From assembly GCA_027311945.1 (NCBI GenBank), contig DAICXZ010000022.1, positions 62,001 to 126,000 of the forward strand: a DNA stretch of 64,000 nt, in the 5' to 3' direction. Source of the stretch: Erythrobacter sp. Lineage in GTDB: Bacteria > Pseudomonadota > Alphaproteobacteria > Sphingomonadales > Sphingomonadaceae. The notes beneath the pieces were generated by a model that was not told where the DNA came from, searched no databases, and saw only the letters and a program-made list of their open reading frames with translations. This document shows, one piece after another, positions 1 through 53,771 of this stretch. Each line of letters starts with the position of its first letter. Position 1 is the stretch's first letter. The position numbers were made by a program, and so were the translations under genes.

Positions 1-1074
1 CGCTTCATCAACCAGAGACGATGCGCTGGCAGGATGGGAAACGCCGATTTCAGCCTCATTCGCGATCCAGCCCGAAGCGAATACCGCAAGGATAGCGGCA
101 GCCTTGGCCCACCGATTGCGCGAGCGGTTGTCGTTCGCGGCAGAGGTTGCCTGCACCCTGGCCGGTTCAGCAGCCGCTTGCTCGCTCGCGGATTGAGCCG
201 ACCAGTTCTCGCTGTAATAACGGGCAAAAAACGGGTCGAGATTGCGGTCGATGTAGTCGTCGACAAAGGCGATGTCTTCCGCCGTCAGATAATCGACGTA
301 GCCACCGACCTTTCCGCGGCGAACCTTGAAGCTTTCCGGATTGTTCGGATCGGCAGGGCGAAGGCGCTCGTGCTTGAAGCTGTCCTGCAACTCAGCCTTG
401 CGCATGTTGCGGAACGAGCCCTTTTCGACAATCTCATCGACCAGTTCGGCGCTCGGATCGGGCAGGCCGAAGAACTTGGCAGAATCCCGGATCACCTTTC
501 GCGGATCGCTCTGCATATCCTCGTAGGTGATCCAGAGAAAGTCGCGCGGCACGGACCGCGCCTGCGCCCAGGCGTTGTAAAACGCCACGATGGCATCGAT
601 GCTGCCCTTCTCACAACGCAGATAGGTCGAGATGTCGCAATCGATCACCTTCATCCTGTTCTTGGCGTCAAAGTAGTAGGAAACCAGAACGTCGCGAGGG
701 TCGCGGGTGAGCAGCAGCACCTTCTTTCTGCGATAGAACGACTTGTTCCACTCGACATCGCGCCCGAACTTCAGATTGGGATAATCATCGTGCGTAAACC
801 CGATGTTCGGGATGCCGGGCGAGAGCTTCCAGAAATGCTGAAGCTCCATGGGATTATCGACCTTGAGGCCGAACTGCGCACAGGCCATGCTCCCGAACAT
901 GGTGCGAAACCATGTCCGACCGGACTTGGGATAGGAGAGGACATAGCCATCCCTCGCCCAGGCGCTCGCCGAACGGCGCATTGCCAGCAATATGCCCTTG
1001 TTCTTGATCGAGCGCGGCAGCAACACCTCACCTGCGGAAAAGGCGAAGTCCCGGAACATCGTGCGTAATGTCAT
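1..1074 (-). CDS. Sulfotransferase family protein, partial (runs off left edge), with C-terminal TM/anti-sigma-like tail
   Basis: Open minus frame from ATG at 1074 to position 1 (absent from the ORF track because it has no stop in the window). Translation MTLRTMFRDFAF...YVLSYPKSGRTWFRTMFGSM...KVLLLTRDPRDVLVSYYFD has PAPS-binding 5'-PSB (YPKSGRTW) and 3'-PB-like motifs. Confidence 0.85.
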   Translation of the reverse strand, partial: MTLRTMFRDFAFSAGEVLLPRSIKNKGILLAMRRSASAWARDGYVLSYPKSGRTWFRTMFGSMACAQFGLKVDNPMELQHFWKLSPGIPNIGFTHDDYPNLKFGRDVEWNKSFYRRKKVLLLTRDPRDVLVSYYFDAKNRMKVIDCDISTYLRCEKGSIDAIVAFYNAWAQARSVPRDFLWITYEDMQSDPRKVIRDSAKFFGLPDPSAELVDEIVEKGSFRNMRKAELQDSFKHERLRPADPNNPESFKVRRGKVGGYVDYLTAEDIAFVDDYIDRNLDPFFARYYSENWSAQSASEQAAAEPARVQATSAANDNRSRNRWAKAAAILAVFASGWIANEAEIGVSHPASASSLVDEA

Positions 1075-1745
1075 CTGACTGATTCCCAATCCTGTTGAGC
1101 GATGGGCTGGCCGATGCCCCCGGCCATTTAAATCCTACGCTAATGTAGCGAAGGCCATACTCAGGAGGACCGGTTTGGCAAGCGGAGCCGGTGCCAAGTC
1201 GGCCTGATTGGTAGCTTGAAACGCTATCCGGTCACTGCCGGGGGCATGGGTTTGCAAAAGTGTGCCACTTAGAGACGTTTAGCGTAAAGTTCGTCGGCGG
1301 CCGAGTCTCGAAATTCCAACGTCCTTTTGTGCGATGATCGCCCGAAGCCGGCGTTGGTTTTGTTGCCAGGAGCTGCCGCCTTCTCCGGAAAATCGCCGCT
1401 GTTGGGGTGTCATTCCGGGCGTGATCGAGTTTCGGCGCGGTCGCTGGTGGGGCTCGCGAGCACAGGCGAACTGCGGATCGTCCGCGGCGGGCGGCGAGCC
1501 GGGCGCGGTCATATAGCTTGTGCGCTGACGCGCTGGTGGGCGCGGGGGGGTGTCAGTAATGGGTCGCTGTGGGCGAGCGGGCTTATTCGGGGACTCGGAC
1601 ATCTGCCAGTGTGGAGCAGATTTGGGGGTTTGTAGGAAAGGGGCTTTCTCTGCTGCTAACTGCCACCTTCCCCCTGTCGTAACAAGTTGACGCGAGGATT
1701 CACCTTGAGTTAGGCGGAAAAGTGGCACGCAAAAAACAATTGTAG

Positions 1746-2978
1746 TTAGCTCGCGGAAGTCGTTGTAAAACGGCCGTATAGCTCTTCGCAGAGCGAAGTT
1801 ATAATTCGTTGAGTGCCATTGACTATACTGGCAAGCCAGCCGATCTTCCGCATGGCCCAATCGAACCAGAAGCTCAGCGCGATAATTGCGATCATCAAAG
1901 CGGTCGCAAGACCTAGTGCCGAACCACTGCTCTGGGGCTTGATCACAACACAATACAGCAGAATATTGCCAAAGGCGAAGGTAAAGAGGCTTGTGCGCCC
2001 AAAGAACGCTAGGACTCGCCATTCGCGGTCCGTCCAAACCGCTGTTGTAAGAAGCACCGATGCGGCCGTCAGAACGGATGCGCAAAGCACTCCGACTAGA
2101 AAATAGAGTGGATGCTCTGCGATCCGAAGGGACAAATTTCCAAGACTTCGGACGGTTTCGTGGTCGAGCATTATAAAAAGTAGCGAGACCGGGATGCCCG
2201 CGCCCAAAAGAAGAAGTGTCGCTTTGTGACGAATATCCTCACTCCGGGGCTGTGCTTTGTTCGGGCCAATGAGAAACTTCCCTATGACCATGCCTGCGAG
2301 CACCAAGGTGATACCGCGCATGATTGACGGTCCCCCAAGCTGGGCCTCACCTAAACCAAAAAGGAACTTCCAAAGCCGCCCAACTTCTATGGGCATGTTG
2401 GACCCAGCGGGAGTGGGAAGGGATATAAATAGAGGGTATAGCAGATGGATGGCAATCGCTCCAACTGTCAGTGCGACGAGGCCAAAGCGTTGACGCGCCC
2501 ATATCAGGATTGGGGCTATTGCCAGCACAACTACGTAGAACTTGAGGATATCCGTGAAGGGCGTGACGCCAAGCATCAATATTGTGGCGATCGAGAACTT
2601 CGCCGAGTAATCATCGCGTGTCAGAAAAAGTACTACGACGGAGAGGCAGTACAGGAGCCAGCACTGGGCGGCGCGTGACAACAGCCTTGTGGAGGTTGCC
2701 CTTCTCGCGCCTGGACCAAAGCGTGGGAGGTAAACGATCTCCAACATGGTTCCGAACAGCACGATAAAGGTCGGGGTCGCAGAGGCCATCGCCACGCGGA
2801 GCGCTGTAACCCAGGCACCACGATAGAATTCTCCCAAATACGCGACAACCCAGACGTGACTCGCCATCGCCAACAGTATTGCGATCGAACGCGCAAGATC
2901 AATGCCGACAATCCGGGTCCGTTTGAAGGGCGGGGCGGTGAAGGCATTCTGGGTCATTGTTTTCGTTGCGGAAGTCAT
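1746..2978 (-). CDS. Multi-TM acyltransferase-like membrane protein (OpgC/acyltransferase-3 type)
   Basis: ORF with start at MTSATKTMTQN; RIVGIDLARSIAILLAMASHVWV opening and about 10 hydrophobic segments typical of membrane acyltransferases. Confidence 0.6.
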   Translation of the reverse strand: MTSATKTMTQNAFTAPPFKRTRIVGIDLARSIAILLAMASHVWVVAYLGEFYRGAWVTALRVAMASATPTFIVLFGTMLEIVYLPRFGPGARRATSTRLLSRAAQCWLLYCLSVVVLFLTRDDYSAKFSIATILMLGVTPFTDILKFYVVVLAIAPILIWARQRFGLVALTVGAIAIHLLYPLFISLPTPAGSNMPIEVGRLWKFLFGLGEAQLGGPSIMRGITLVLAGMVIGKFLIGPNKAQPRSEDIRHKATLLLLGAGIPVSLLFIMLDHETVRSLGNLSLRIAEHPLYFLVGVLCASVLTAASVLLTTAVWTDREWRVLAFFGRTSLFTFAFGNILLYCVVIKPQSSGSALGLATALMIAIIALSFWFDWAMRKIGWLASIVNGTQRIITSLCEELYGRFTTTSAS

Positions 2979-3178
2979 TGAGTGAGGGCCTTGCTGCTTC
3001 GTCCCGTTTAATGATTTGCATCTTGCGAAAATCGCCGACCTCAGGTCATGATTCGATAAAGAATACCAAGATAACATGTGATCGTAGCCCATTAATCGAT
3101 CGAGAGGTCAAGCGGTGACTAGGTCAAACCTTTGCAAGCATGGTCGCCGTGGGAAGAGCCAGCGGCTAGCCAACAGGC

Positions 3179-3643
3179 ATGAACGGGAAAGTCCAAGCGC
3201 ATCGTTTCGGTCATCACGCTCTTGCTGTTCTGGGCGCAGCCACGGTCGGGTCGACTATATTCTCGCTAGTCTGGACCGCTGGATTGGGGCTGGCGGCAGC
3301 TGAGCAGTGGCGCGGACTAGGGTGGTTGGCGACTATGGCGGTGCTTTTCTGGCTTGGCACATTCATGATCGCACTGCCGAGCGCCGGGAATGTGTTTTCA
3401 GTTTTCTGGCCTGTGATCCGACGTAAGACTGTGGCTGCCAATTGTATCTGCGTGCTGTCGGGCGCGACTATGGGCTTGATCATCGCTCCCACGGCAAGTT
3501 CGGGCGCGCGCGGTGCCTCTTTGCCGCAGCTGGCCATCTTTGCAGCGTTTGGGGCAACGGTTGCAGTGTCCTATCTGGTCATCGTCAATCGGTTTGGCCG
3601 GAAGGTCGGTCTTGTCGTCGACCCCGCAATTTTCGCCGATTGA
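3179..3643 (+). CDS. Small hypothetical membrane protein
   Basis: 154-aa ORF with about four hydrophobic segments; no recognised family. Confidence 0.5.
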   Translation: MNGKVQAHRFGHHALAVLGAATVGSTIFSLVWTAGLGLAAAEQWRGLGWLATMAVLFWLGTFMIALPSAGNVFSVFWPVIRRKTVAANCICVLSGATMGLIIAPTASSGARGASLPQLAIFAAFGATVAVSYLVIVNRFGRKVGLVVDPAIFAD

Positions 3644-45346: not shown

Positions 45347-45514
45347 GGAGTTGCGTACCTCGGATCTGGGGAATTTCATTTCGTTTGAAACCGAACTCAT
45401 AGCAGGGCCATCGTGAGGCGCAACTGAATGGGGGCGGGGGCGGCACACAGGATTGGCGGATAAGCGGCTGAGCCAGCTTGCGAGATTGCGCGGCGGACGG
45501 CAGGCTGGCGGGTG

Positions 45515-47092
45515 ATGGCGGAAGTGTCGATCAAATCGCGCAAGGACTTAAGAAGCTGGCTTGATGACAAGCCCGCGGAATGGGCGCATGTGCTGGCTGT
45601 ACGCACGGCCTTACGGCTATTGCCTTTAGTAAGCGATCCAGAGCTGTTCTATGATGAGCAACCGAATGCCGATTTGACGTTGCAGGCGTTTCGGGCAATG
45701 GTCGTATCATCGGGCGCGGCCAAGATTCCGCCTGATGTTACGGTAACCCTTGCTGCCCGCGCAGCCGCCCGCGCCGCTCCCGCCACCCAAGCCGCGTCAG
45801 TTCCTTCCGCTGCTGCCCGCTCTGCCGCCCGGGCTGCCCACGCTGCCGCTGTCCCCGCCGCCGCCGCCGCCGCCGCAGAAGCAGCCATTGATGATGCTGC
45901 GGACGCAGCCGTCGGTTACGATTCCTGGCATAGCTTTTCGATCGATTGCGTTGCGTTGCAGGATGGAGTGCAACCGCAAAAACTGCTGGCAAGGCCGCTC
46001 TGGCTCGAGCAGCCCGACTGGTTCACCCAAAGCTGGCGACGCGCGGAAGAGTGGCTAGAATTGGACTACGCATTCTTCTGGCGTAATTGGTATCTTGCTC
46101 GCCTCAAGGGCTCGCGTCATGCGCTGCCTTGGTTCGATGCGGATACTGATCGCCGCTTCCACCAATTTCTGTTCGAGCAGGACGATGACTGGTGGAGACG
46201 CAACCCGGTTGAGGTCAATCGTCAAATCGCTGACTGGGTGAATACGGAGCCGCTCGGTGGTTCAGAGGAGCAAGAATATTACCCTGATGGTCAGCGCAAC
46301 GAGACAACACCGCGCGATATCCTCGAAAACACCGCCGACCCACAAGCCGTAGAAGAGGGTGGCAAGTTAGGGATCAAGCAGAACGCCGAATTTGGTGTCG
46401 CGATTACCCAAACCAAGGCGCAGATCGCGCAGCGACTGATCGATCTCGCATTCGCCCTTTCGTCGGGCTTGGAAGCAAATGCTCCGTCAGGTCTCCCGGC
46501 TGCACTTGCGCGTTACGCCACTGTGCTGGAGCGCAACATCGCGGAGCCGGCCACAGATACGCTCAATCCCCTTGCCGGCATCGTCAGGAATTTACGTCGG
46601 GAGGACGGCCATGAGGCATGGGCGCGAGGTCTGGCTGAAACCTTCGATCAATTCCTCACAGACCATAATAGACTGTTTGGGGAGGCCGAAAGCCAACAGG
46701 ACAAGGCGAGTGAGCGCGAAAAGCTGACCTTAGAGGAAAGTCTCAGGGATCAGTCGCTGGCGAACGATGTCGAGAAATTCACGGCTTTGGTGCGATCTCT
46801 GGCTGAGGCGGGGGTGACGAACGAAACCGCCCAAAAATATCTCGATATACTCGTCAAAATGGGGATGGAGATAGCCTATGGCGGGCCGCAGTACCTTGAT
46901 CGGGACCAAGAGATCGTTGGCGTTCCGAAGGGGTGGTCGATCACTGATTCCTATCGTGCAAACGTTGCCGGGCTTTCGATGCAGATTCAAAACGTGGCCT
47001 TTGCACTGAGTGTGACGGGACACCCACAATTCCAGAGTGTCATTCCGGTTGTCACGGACTTCGTCACGCACATGGCGAGGTATTGGCTCTGA
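45515..47092 (+). CDS. Modular protein: Ala-rich N-terminal domain plus uncharacterised C-terminal region
   Basis: DDKPAEWAHVLAVRTALRLLPLV ... ARAAARAAPATQAASVPSAAARSAARAAHAAAVPAAAAAAAEAA ... WHSFSIDCVALQDGV...PLWLEQPDWFTQSWRRAEEWL. Confidence 0.75.
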   Translation: MAEVSIKSRKDLRSWLDDKPAEWAHVLAVRTALRLLPLVSDPELFYDEQPNADLTLQAFRAMVVSSGAAKIPPDVTVTLAARAAARAAPATQAASVPSAAARSAARAAHAAAVPAAAAAAAEAAIDDAADAAVGYDSWHSFSIDCVALQDGVQPQKLLARPLWLEQPDWFTQSWRRAEEWLELDYAFFWRNWYLARLKGSRHALPWFDADTDRRFHQFLFEQDDDWWRRNPVEVNRQIADWVNTEPLGGSEEQEYYPDGQRNETTPRDILENTADPQAVEEGGKLGIKQNAEFGVAITQTKAQIAQRLIDLAFALSSGLEANAPSGLPAALARYATVLERNIAEPATDTLNPLAGIVRNLRREDGHEAWARGLAETFDQFLTDHNRLFGEAESQQDKASEREKLTLEESLRDQSLANDVEKFTALVRSLAEAGVTNETAQKYLDILVKMGMEIAYGGPQYLDRDQEIVGVPKGWSITDSYRANVAGLSMQIQNVAFALSVTGHPQFQSVIPVVTDFVTHMARYWL

Positions 47093-47211: not shown

Positions 47212-50109
<2,898 letters not shown>

Positions 50110-50141: not shown

Positions 50142-50160
50142 CCCCGGGCTTGACCCGGGG
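50142..50160. repeat. Palindromic intergenic repeat unit
   Basis: CCCCGGG-cttga-CCCGGGG; recalled as a common alphaproteobacterial intergenic motif. Confidence 0.5.
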
Positions 50161-50162
50161 TG

Positions 50163-50333
50163 GTGGTGATCGAGCACAACCTCGATGTGATCAAAACGGC
50201 TGATTGGGTGCTCGATCTTGGGCCGGATGGCGGCGTGCGCGGGGGTGAGATCGTGGCTGAGGGCACGCCGGAGCAGGTGGCCGCTACGCCTGCGAGCTAT
50301 ACGGGGCAGTATTTGAAGCCGATGCTGGGGTAG
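50163..50333 (+). pseudogene. Remnant of a second, divergent uvrA 3' end
   Basis: Translates [56 protein letters not shown]; no upstream gene body. Confidence 0.9.
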
Positions 50334-50527
50334 GTCTACGCCGATCCTCCCCCACCGGGGGAGGGGGACCACCCGCAGGGTGGTGGAGGGGCTTGACGGT
50401 TATTCCGGGCGGGTGAGGCTGCGCTGGCTTTTGTGCTCACAGAGGACGCAGAGGGGTTGCGCTGCAAACGCGAGGCGTCGCGCGCATAACCGTCGCTTCG
50501 GACCCTCTTGACCCTTGCGCCAGTTCG

Positions 50528-52099
50528 TCACCCTGCACCTGGTACAGAGACTGGCTTGCGAGATGCGCTTGCGGAGGCAAATGCTTCTGCAATTTCCTTA
50601 ACCTGTGATTCAGCTAATTCAGAAAGCTGGTCCATTTCTGAATGAACGTAATAGGGAATAGAAGTCAAAAAAGTTGGGGAAGCTTCAAGTTTATTCCACT
50701 TCAACGCTGAACCATCACCATTTTTTCGTTTGGTTGACCGAGCAAAAGCCCGTTTAAAGCCCAGCGGGGTCACGCCTTTAAGGCTGCAAAAGTTGACACG
50801 ATGGTCGTGATCACTGCCTTCAAAAACAACTGAATCCTTGAAAAGCTCGCCAGAGAGACTCTTTACGTATGGTTGAACGTAAACCACCCGCTTTATTCCC
50901 GACGCGATGACAAGCTTTGTGCACATGTGACAAGGCATTGTTGTGCAGTATAGCGTTGTACCGCTAGTTGACCTGTTGAATCTCGCGGCATCAGTTATCG
51001 CGTTCATTTCAGCATGAACCATACGCCCAAATTCAATGATGTCTGTGAGCATAGACTTATTCCATGGGCCACGTGATTTGCCTTCTTTCCGATCTTCATC
51101 TTGAAGGGCAGCATCACATAGGTCCTGTAGGTCTTGGCCCGCTATTTCCTCATTTAACCAGCCGCTCTCCTTAAGCTGAGAAATAGCATCTCGAACCATG
51201 TCCTCTTTAACGCGGTGATTTGAATCATAACCTAAAACATAATCTCGCGCATCATTTTTATGGTGCTCCCAGTAAGTTCCTCCCATCGGAGATGGAACTT
51301 CATTACAGCCCATGGATACGACTTCCCCCTCGTCGGAAAATATAGCTGCTCCTACTTGTCGAGATAGGTCAAGCGAGCGGTATGCTGCTGCGTTTGCTAT
51401 GTAGGAGCAATACTCATCCTTGCTTGGTGACACGAACGGGTCGCCGAAGTATATACGAAAGAATCTATCGCATGAAGCTTCTAAGGTTTTCAATGAGGTA
51501 CAATCAAGTACAAAGTCAGATTTTGGATAGCAGTCTATAATTTTCTGACCGAAATCCTCTTCTGACTCGTCTTCATCTGTGGAGATGATATCTAGTGCTT
51601 TAGATTCCAGTTTAATTTGCGTTGATTTTCTATCGCTGACCCTCATCCTGTCGACTAGGTAATCAACTCGCGACTGTTTTGGGGCATAACATCCGAGAAA
51701 TATAATGTTCCGTCCGTAAATTCGGTCAAGAGTTCGATATTCTTCTAAGTGTTTTATTTGTCTAAAAATGGTCATTCTTGGCTGAAGAGCTTGCTTTTCA
51801 CGCTCTTCATGACTTTGTTGCAATAAGCGTGTAACTCCTAAGAGGGCGAGAATGTCGCCTCTTTTTGCATCAGCGCAGAGCTGATCTCCTGCTTTGATAT
51901 ATATACTATACCTGGAGACCTCGTCATTAAAATTTTTGGGTACACGTCCGAACGCCTTTAAAAAATCAGTCAGCTTAATGAGGTTTGGACTGTAGGCGAC
52001 TTGAGAGGCTTTTTCCGAAAGGACTCTTGTCACCTCGTCCATGTCTATGCCTATCGGCGCGATAAGGGCCGTAAACACTTCACGACGATTTGTAGACAT
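50528..52099 (-). CDS. Two-domain cytidylate deaminase, AvcD-like (anti-phage dCTP/dCMP deaminase family)
   Basis: N-terminal degenerate P-loop-like FTALIAPIGIDMDEVTRVL, NIIFLGCYAPKQSRVDYLVDRM; C-terminal zinc deaminase VHAEMNAI ... TLYCTTMPCHMCTKLVIASGIKRVVY; AT-rich relative to neighbours. Confidence 0.88.
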   Translation of the reverse strand: MSTNRREVFTALIAPIGIDMDEVTRVLSEKASQVAYSPNLIKLTDFLKAFGRVPKNFNDEVSRYSIYIKAGDQLCADAKRGDILALLGVTRLLQQSHEEREKQALQPRMTIFRQIKHLEEYRTLDRIYGRNIIFLGCYAPKQSRVDYLVDRMRVSDRKSTQIKLESKALDIISTDEDESEEDFGQKIIDCYPKSDFVLDCTSLKTLEASCDRFFRIYFGDPFVSPSKDEYCSYIANAAAYRSLDLSRQVGAAIFSDEGEVVSMGCNEVPSPMGGTYWEHHKNDARDYVLGYDSNHRVKEDMVRDAISQLKESGWLNEEIAGQDLQDLCDAALQDEDRKEGKSRGPWNKSMLTDIIEFGRMVHAEMNAITDAARFNRSTSGTTLYCTTMPCHMCTKLVIASGIKRVVYVQPYVKSLSGELFKDSVVFEGSDHDHRVNFCSLKGVTPLGFKRAFARSTKRKNGDGSALKWNKLEASPTFLTSIPYYVHSEMDQLSELAESQVKEIAEAFASASASRKPVSVPGAG

Positions 52100-52136
52100 T
52101 TGAACGGCCACTCCCGACATGCAATCTCTGGAAAAA

Positions 52137-52165
52137 ATCAAATCTAGGATTGAGTCACGAGTCAA
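52137..52165 (-). promoter_or_regulatory. Predicted promoter for the deaminase gene
   Basis: On minus strand: TTGACT - 17 nt - TTTGAT about 40 nt upstream of the preferred ATG. Confidence 0.45.
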
Positions 52166-52211
52166 GAGGGTTTAGTGACATGTCCCGGAGAGAACTCAGG
52201 AGTAATTTGTG

Positions 52212-52385
52212 ATGGACAACGACATTTCTCGTGAATGGCTCGTGGAAATTTTCATCACATATCAAGAAGCCATTGATCGACGTAAGCAATCTCAATCTCC
52301 TTTATGGTTAAGAGATGCGTTGGAGGATGATCGTAGAAACCGCGCTTCTGTGCGAGATTCTGCGGCGAGGTTGGATTCGCTTTGA
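52212..52385 (+). CDS. 57-aa hypothetical microprotein, divergent from the deaminase
   Basis: MDNDISREWLVEIFITYQEAIDRRKQSQSPLWLRDALEDDRRNRASVRDSAARLDSL; AGGAG at 52198-52202, 9 nt before ATG; below the track cutoff. Confidence 0.5.
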   Translation: MDNDISREWLVEIFITYQEAIDRRKQSQSPLWLRDALEDDRRNRASVRDSAARLDSL

Positions 52386-52566
52386 AATCACATTTTTAGT
52401 GTGACATGTTTCTGGTCGATTGAGTTTCACACTAGACGTTCCGAATGCACTTTATGGTTGGTGTAGGTGAGTCAATCCCCTTTCCTACACACCCCAAAAT
52501 ATGCCTCACTGCGCGCCCGCTTTGCCCAAGGCGGTCCACGAAACGCGCAGACCATGAGGCTCCCCC

Positions 52567-52761
52567 ATGCCAAAACCCCCCGACGTCCCCACCACCTATA
52601 AACTCCCGGTCCCCGCTCCCGGCGACCCCGCGCCGCTTGAGCACGCCCAACGCTGGCTCGCCCATGTCGAAGCGGGCCGCATCGGCAAGCCGCGTCCGGC
52701 AACGTCCAAGGCCACCAGTACAAGGTGCGCCTTCCCGTGGGACCGGGAGCGCGCCCGATGA
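52567..52761 (+). CDS. Small hypothetical protein (64 aa), ATGA overlap with next ORF
   Basis: MPKPPDVPTTYKLPVPAPGDPAPLEHAQRWLAHVEAGRIGKPRP; stop overlaps the 52758 ATG. Confidence 0.4.
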   Translation: MPKPPDVPTTYKLPVPAPGDPAPLEHAQRWLAHVEAGRIGKPRPATSKATSTRCAFPWDRERAR

Positions 52762-53771
52762 CCTCTATCGTTCAGCTCACCCCGCTCCAGCTCGCCCAGC
52801 TTGACCCCCACGTCTTCGCCGATCCCGACCACCCGAAAATCGCCCGCACCGCCAATGGCCAGCAGGTCGCGCTCACCCCCGCGCGGATGGCGGACTTTCT
52901 CGAAAGCCTGATGACCATGGGCAGCGTCGCCATCGCCTGCCAGCGCGCCGGGGTTGCGCGGCAGACCGCTTATCGCACCCGGCGCCGGTCTCCTGGGTTT
53001 GCCAGAGCGTGGGATGCGGCGCTGATCGCCGCGCGCACCGTCGCCGAGACCGAGCTGGCCGAGCGTGCCATCAACGGGGTGGAGGAGGCGGTGTTCTATC
53101 ACGGCGAGGAGGTCGCGCGGCGGCGGCGTTTCGACAGCCGCCTGCTGCTCGCGCACCTTGCCCGGCTCGACAAGGCGGCCGAGCGGCTCGACCTTGCCGC
53201 CACGCTCCCGCAGCTCGACGACCAGATCGCGGCGCTGCGCCTTGCGGGTGAGGGGGCGGAGGACGCGGTGCTTCCGGGCGCAGTTGCGGCGGAGGATTTG
53301 CGCCGGGTGCAGGACGAGCGCGAACTGGTGCGCGATCCGGCGGGCTATGCGGAGCGTGAGACTGCGCGGAATGCGGCGGAGAAAGAAAGGGCGATCCTTC
53401 GGAAGCGAAGCTGTGGCGAAGCCACACCGGCTCAGGATGAGCGGGGGGTGGGAAAAACTCCTCAGGACACTGTCACACCTGTCACACCTTGCCCGATCAC
53501 ACCGTGCGAGGACTGCGGCGGCTTCTGCCTCGATGCCGAGACCGAGCCGGGGGTCAGGCTGACGCAGGCGGACTGTCAGTGGCTGGGCAACCGACTTGAA
53601 CGGATGGAGGAGGCGCGGCCCGAGGGGGCGCTGCCGCCGTTCCGGCTATGCCCCGAGGGCGATCGCACCGGCGCGCTGGAGATGGCGCAGCTGCATGCGT
53701 TCGAGGCGGGGGTGCCGCGTTGGTGGGAACTGGTGCCCGAGGGGGCGGATGACGCGCTCGAAAGCGCCTAG
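52758..53771 (+). CDS. HTH-containing protein, phage terminase small-subunit-like N-terminal region
   Basis: RMADFLESLMTMGSVAIACQRAGVARQTAYRTRRRSPGFARAWDAALIAARTVAETELAERAINGVEEAVFYHGEEV. Confidence 0.6.
   Translation: MTSIVQLTPLQLAQLDPHVFADPDHPKIARTANGQQVALTPARMADFLESLMTMGSVAIACQRAGVARQTAYRTRRRSPGFARAWDAALIAARTVAETELAERAINGVEEAVFYHGEEVARRRRFDSRLLLAHLARLDKAAERLDLAATLPQLDDQIAALRLAGEGAEDAVLPGAVAAEDLRRVQDERELVRDPAGYAERETARNAAEKERAILRKRSCGEATPAQDERGVGKTPQDTVTPVTPCPITPCEDCGGFCLDAETEPGVRLTQADCQWLGNRLERMEEARPEGALPPFRLCPEGDRTGALEMAQLHAFEAGVPRWWELVPEGADDALESA
53391..53447. repeat. REP-like element lying inside the HTH ORF
   Basis: gcgatccttcggaagcgaagctgtggcgaagccacaccggctcaggatgagcgg; gctcaggatgagcgg matches gctcagcatgagcgg (rpsL REP) at 14 of 15 positions; internal TGTGGC-gaa-GCCACA. 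Confidence 0.6.

Follow-up and report, generated by a model that had tools for sequence, protein, structure and literature searches.

The question raised by this locus is whether a two-domain deaminase gene in an AT-rich islet is a horizontally acquired anti-phage gene and, if so, what restrains the enzyme it encodes. We use the window for the whole stretch of DNA that was analysed, 64,000 nucleotides in length. The gene at the centre of the question is:

50528..52099, minus strand: protein of 523 aa assigned to the two-domain anti-phage dCTP/dCMP deaminase family (AvcD/dCTPase family), from its translation, PADLOC, NF041025 and fold matches

The deaminase and its family

The first-pass annotation had described a protein of 523 aa whose N-terminal half resembles a degenerate P-loop domain, and this open reading frame was found exactly at 52099..50528 (minus strand) with the motifs given for it, LIAPIGIDMDEVTRVL, HAEMNAI and PCHMC. 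The zinc site consists of H362-A-E364 and P389-C-H-M-C393, and an alignment of 20 relatives showed that H362, E364, C390 and C393 are invariant. The DNA of the islet is AT-rich as claimed: its GC content is 0.41-0.48 over 50500-52500, but reaches 0.63-0.69 on the uvrA side and, past position 52500, 0.69-0.72.

A profile and structure comparison, asked for in that annotation, agreed with its assignment to the AvcD/dCTP-deaminase family. The PADLOC dCTPase model matched residues 3-504 (1.5e-130, 435 bits), and the NCBIfam model NF041025, 'anti-phage dCTP deaminase', was matched over its full length (model positions 1-437) with 388.3 bits, 12 bits below the curated cut-off of 400. With the ComEB model the protein scored 52 bits against a cut-off of 219, and the full-length similarity is thus to the anti-phage family and not to ComEB-type housekeeping enzymes. 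Pfam detected only the deaminase zinc domain (2.1e-19), and sequence matches in the PDB were restricted to the deaminase half. An AlphaFold2 model (mean pLDDT 81.5) compared with solved structures by Foldseek matched both UMP-CMP/adenylate-kinase-like folds and dCMP/dCTP and TadA deaminases, and showed a kinase-like N-terminal domain fused to a zinc deaminase. Judged from its sequence, the protein is a member of the anti-phage dCTP/dCMP-deaminase family, a family that is itself already known, and it would be expected to act on dC nucleotides and in phage defence.

The P-loop had been called degenerate, and it reads G17-I18-D19 where AvcID, the copies on E. coli plasmids and numerous further relatives have Gly-Ser-Gly. 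Among aligned relatives this position varied widely, many having GSG and others GTD, GVN, GCP or GID. Because of this variation, with GID among the variants, the degenerate P-loop is a property of a living clade, whose kinase-like domain lacks Gly-Ser-Gly, rather than decay of the window copy, and for the same reason it bears on the subtype and not on family membership. For the V. parahaemolyticus system the inactive control is a double mutant, S49K plus E376A (PMC10511110); that S49 is the P-loop serine is our reading.

The gene was present in 1 of 40 genomes of the genus and in 13 of 301 genomes of the family (Sphingomonadaceae), where its closest relatives, 78 and 73% identical, belong to other genera. 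The full-length named relatives from the alignment search are Alphaproteobacteria, and identity to the E. coli and Vibrio plasmid copies is about 26-30%. A phage origin of the gene was considered and is unsupported, as viral contigs and phage records gave only distant full-length relatives (30-32% identity).

Horizontal acquisition had been proposed together with two findings that would speak against it, conservation at the locus across the whole genus and best homologs of the ComEB type lacking the N-terminal domain. Neither was observed, because 39 of the 40 genomes are without the gene, the cargo at this position differs between genomes and the full-length match is to the anti-phage family; the AT-rich islet likewise agrees with acquisition.

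A divergent small gene and the region between

Upstream of the deaminase lies a second gene on the opposite strand, and the features between the two are:

52212-52385, plus strand: divergent 57-codon gene, candidate partner or antitoxin (MDNDISREWLVEIFITYQEAID...), from cross-genus conservation, Shine-Dalgarno (SD) sequence and third-position substitution excess
52100..52211, no strand: putative shared divergent promoter region, from an alignment of four relatives with the promoter assigned by eye
52160-52165, minus strand: putative deaminase -35 box TTGACT, by eye
52137-52142, minus strand: putative deaminase -10-like box TTTGAT, spacer 17, by eye
about 52141-52152, no strand: inverted element CAATC-N3-GATT, conserved in four relatives

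The 57-codon reading frame runs in the direction away from the deaminase, and the starts of the two genes are 112 nt apart. At the same place in three other loci, from three other genera, the small protein is 70, 59 and 60% identical, and a ribosome-binding site (SD) precedes each copy. In the closest pair the substitutions pile up at third codon positions (15/9/30; dN 0.26, dS 1.5), and the conservation pattern indicates that 52212-52385 (plus strand) is a coding gene. Among the 301 genomes of the family it was found only alongside the deaminase.

To score the small gene across the deaminase family we required the opposite strand, an ATG or GTG start with an SD, 48-75 codons and a start 90-170 nt from the P-loop codon. 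With these criteria, which were narrowed after a wider first scan (60-330 nt, 45-110 codons) and not fixed blind, and by which shuffled sequence was judged as well, the gene was detected in 29 of the 31 sampled members of one clade vs 1 of 36 others, where the shuffles predict 1.1 and 1.2. Removal of close relatives left 23 of 25 clade members with the gene. The positives form one clade on the protein tree (SH-aLRT 98), except for the one in L114, which is likely a random ORF, and none of 500 label shuffles was as clustered. Fisher's test for the association gave P 1.7e-15, a value that ignores relatedness and cannot be read as a probability. The two clade members without the gene, L051 and L060, are both on long branches. 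What argues for a partner gene is the persistence of the small gene next to deaminases whose identity has fallen to about 30%. Type II-like pairs have a small conserved protein gene adjoining the effector, and so do 29 of the 31 clade members.

Small proteins of this clade are about 50-67 aa long, and the one in Pararhizobium gei carries the annotation 'hypothetical protein'. A second subfamily, from Rhodobacterales, also has the third-position excess, so that SD and codon-position bias are found in two subfamilies. Profile-profile comparison detected no sequence similarity between the small proteins of the two main subclades, which have size and position in common. As this comparison does not support common ancestry we do not claim a single family, and neither common ancestry nor common function of the two subclades' proteins is proven. 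The small protein of the window was predicted as a two-helix hairpin by a weak model (pTM only 0.37).

The intergenic region is conserved in four relatives, with a CTTGA(C/T) box and a weak -10-like hexamer separated by a spacer of 17 nt in which CAATC-N3-GATT occurs (boxes assigned by eye), and this putative deaminase promoter lies 38-66 nt from the start codon. An operator common to the whole clade was not found. GANTC sites (CcrM methylation) between the small gene and the deaminase numbered 24 in 25 clade members vs 13.9 expected from shuffles, an excess that is modest and not common to all members; in the window copy the stretch is 52145-52165. An inverted repeat around the deaminase (50502-50517/52156-52171) was rejected as terminal repeats, since repeats of similar quality arise by chance and the relatives' flanks have no equivalent by eye.

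In the studied systems AvcD is a toxin kept inactive by a labile RNA antitoxin and freed when the phage stops host transcription (PMC10511110). Since a conserved small divergent protein gene here adjoins the same kind of enzyme, a labile protein inhibitor is the cheapest explanation. We therefore consider it probable, although by no means certain, that the locus is a horizontally acquired single-slot defence islet in which a deaminase of the AvcD/dCTPase family is restrained by a small protein antitoxin in place of an AvcI-type RNA. The inhibitory role would follow by analogy with AvcD. The two proteins would be encoded back to back from the shared promoter region, and the small one would be a short-lived inhibitor, replacing the RNA, that keeps the deaminase silent until a phage stops host gene expression. 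Once infection releases it, the enzyme would convert dCTP/dCMP to dUTP/dUMP, and phage replication would run short of dC nucleotides.

The divergent layout would suit a transcriptional regulator or a sensor too. It is possible, if rather doubtful, that the small protein regulates the shared promoter, or serves as a sensor/adaptor activating the deaminase on infection, instead of inhibiting it. The inverted element kept inside the deaminase promoter of four relatives is in line with regulation, and a small fast-changing protein beside a conserved enzyme fits the arms-race pressure expected of a sensor, but a 57-aa protein predicted (by the weak model) as a plain helical hairpin belongs to no recognised DNA-binding family, and a regulator would have to do without an operator common to the clade. 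Control by an AvcI-type non-coding RNA as in Vibrio, with the small ORF an unrelated passenger, is quite unlikely. Studied AvcD systems do have an upstream inhibitory RNA (PMC10511110; PMC9455884), but at this locus the space upstream of the putative promoter is taken up by a gene conserved at the protein level. That divergent protein-coding gene is the conserved upstream feature, and nothing was found in favour of an RNA there; the window has no Rfam match, which is a weak point against an RNA as AvcI may not be in Rfam. That the deaminase is an ordinary enzyme of nucleotide metabolism without a defence role is very improbable: its deaminase half resembles dCMP deaminases, but this reading is hard to combine with the full-length anti-phage match, the presence in a single congener of 40 and the position in an AT-rich islet, within a slot where defence genes are frequent.

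The cargo slot beside uvrA

The islet with the deaminase and its probable protein inhibitor lies in a variable stretch of the chromosome, bounded by the following features:

47212..50109, plus strand: uvrA, which bounds the cargo slot on one side and is syntenic in every congener sampled
50160-50333, plus strand: diverged duplicate of the uvrA 3' end, a probable scar of recombination
52480-52497, plus strand: edge motif CTTTCCTACACACCCCAA, where AT-rich cargo gives way to GC-rich flank, from a motif search
52758-53771, plus strand: solitary phage small-terminase-like gene (TerS-like) on the uvrA-distal side of the slot, PHROG 4044

Each of the 15 congeners examined has a variable stretch after uvrA, beyond which come rlpA and argG. 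AT-rich cargo was present in this stretch in 14 of the 15, different almost every time, mostly as one cargo of about 2 kb per genome and in most with a TerS-like gene on one side; the slot is empty in one genome (G009, L218). By model matches the congeners' cargo includes type II restriction-modification, a TIR protein (PDC-S35), an OLD-like ATPase, a Panacea antitoxin with a phospholipase-like protein, GmrSD-type proteins with FRG or HEPN partners, NACHT, a PD-T4-10-like protein and HEC-03B. Some matches are weak or generic (AAA ATPases, DpdB, PDC-S60), and the apparently high share of defence genes is an uncorrected one. At this position other genera of the family carry a dGTPase-like protein, Drt8, PDC-S49, PDC-M38A, Schlafen-type and NACHT proteins. 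Deaminases were found at this position in five further loci from other genera or metagenome-assembled genomes. One slot copy (L052, G122) is only 33% identical to that of the window, and therefore different deaminases have reached the same slot. In L052 the deaminase, between uvrA and argG, has no divergent small gene of the expected kind, and it has a co-directional upstream gene of 250 aa, of unassigned family.

Besides uvrA and the cargo, only the TerS-like gene, rlpA and argG make up the window slot. Neither an integrase nor replication genes or attachment sites were seen there, and the window has no tRNAs. The uvrA 3' end exists in two tandem versions, roughly 70% identical (49936-50109 and 50160-50333), which are likely traces of recombination at the cargo slot. 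To move such islets, homologous recombination in the flanks would be enough, and the second uvrA end looks like its scar. A partial second uvrA tail was also seen in a congener (G302, L085). On the other side of uvrA an ORF of 526 aa (45512-47092, 56-63% GC) gave no convincing family match; it was not near uvrA in the related loci searched and is possibly a second variable spot.

The gene at 52758-53771 was matched by PHROG 4044, 'terminase small subunit', at 3.9e-20, as were all paralogues tested, and the islet thus has beside it a small-terminase-like gene of its own, a feature of PICI-type elements. Pfam Sf6_terminase gave only 13.8 bits, below the cut-off, and the gene had no further phage genes in sight next to it. 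At the terminase-side edge of roughly half the slots, where AT-rich DNA switches to GC-rich DNA, we found CTTTCCTACACNCCCCAA or a sequence close to it. The exact pattern occurred 0-3 times per genome in 40 congeners, and the reversed control gave no match. At four other chromosomal loci CTTTCCTACACNCCCCAA again separates an AT-rich islet from a diverged TerS gene, and in each case the start codon of this gene follows exactly 36 nt downstream of the motif. A stretch below 52% GC was present 0.6-2.4 kb upstream of 13 of 20 TerS copies outside the uvrA slot and downstream of about 4 (somewhat shorter span), while 2.5-8.6% of arbitrary anchors in the window gave such a stretch. Since a DNA methylase, a SEFIR/TIR protein, a P-loop protein and a 5'-nucleotidase were found at other TerS loci, their cargo is not all defence.

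Across the genus we counted 1-7 PHROG 4044 matches per genome, and CTTTCCTACACNCCCCAA with a solitary TerS-like gene repeatedly flanks AT-rich islets (loci L219-L238, L269-L288). The window's genome has two further TerS-like copies, one of them just outside the window start (G000:C1:61027-61353). Upstream of the latter, window positions 1-3300 form a lower-GC stretch (53-60%) that includes one sulfotransferase-like and one acyltransferase-like ORF (by eye), possibly cargo of a non-defence kind.

These observations allow a wider reading, which we regard as unlikely: the islet would be one copy of a widespread and undescribed integrase-less cassette of Sphingomonadaceae, made up of about 2 kb of AT-rich, mostly defence cargo, CTTTCCTACACNCCCCAA and a solitary TerS, with CTTTCCTACACNCCCCAA as a pac-like site, packaging by a helper phage or gene transfer agent (GTA) and recombination in the flanking core genes. 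If so, the deaminase and its small protein would be one cargo among many. A role of the solitary TerS and CTTTCCTACACNCCCCAA as a packaging tag is speculation, and CTTTCCTACACNCCCCAA may be no more than a promoter or operator serving the terS-like gene.

Relation to known systems

With AvcID of Vibrio and E. coli the deaminase shares full-length homology and the order of a kinase-like N-terminal and a dCMP-type deaminase C-terminal domain. It differs from AvcID in its P-loop, GID instead of GSG, and in the upstream feature, which is a divergent protein gene in the window clade whereas the E. coli copies have a small co-directional upstream ORF. PADLOC 'dCTPase'/NF041025, which the protein matches at full length, is catalogued as a single-gene system, whereas the clade of the window protein has a partner gene. 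It is this partner gene that makes the deaminase a variant of the known family. Our literature search, mostly without subscription papers, found no description of a clade with a conserved divergent small partner gene, nor of a protein partner of dCTP deaminases.

The slot resembles the defence hotspots of the E. coli pan-genome (PMC10121019) in being a fixed place between core genes with changing defence cargo, but differs in holding mostly one AT-rich cargo of about 2 kb with, in most genomes, a TerS-like gene on one side. In other bacteria, chromosomal defence islands have been shown to move by lateral transduction and then to recombine in the flanks (PMC12829572). Like PICI-type satellites, the slot has defence cargo beside a small-terminase-like gene, and exchange through flanking homology is plausible; unlike them it has no integrase, replication genes or attachment sites that we could see, and packaging here is speculation. 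The same search, again mostly without subscription papers, gave no match for a hotspot at uvrA, for a defence hotspot in Sphingomonadales or for an association of TerS with such islets.

Taken together, these results bear on two points. The uvrA slot is one chromosomal position where defence genes replace one another beside a solitary terminase gene, and it bears on how defence islands without an integrase move. Catalogues list anti-phage deaminases as systems of a single gene, and those studied in Vibrio and E. coli have an RNA antitoxin; a whole clade with a divergent small protein and a lost P-loop serine suggests that there is a second way to restrain a nucleotide deaminase that is toxic to the cell.
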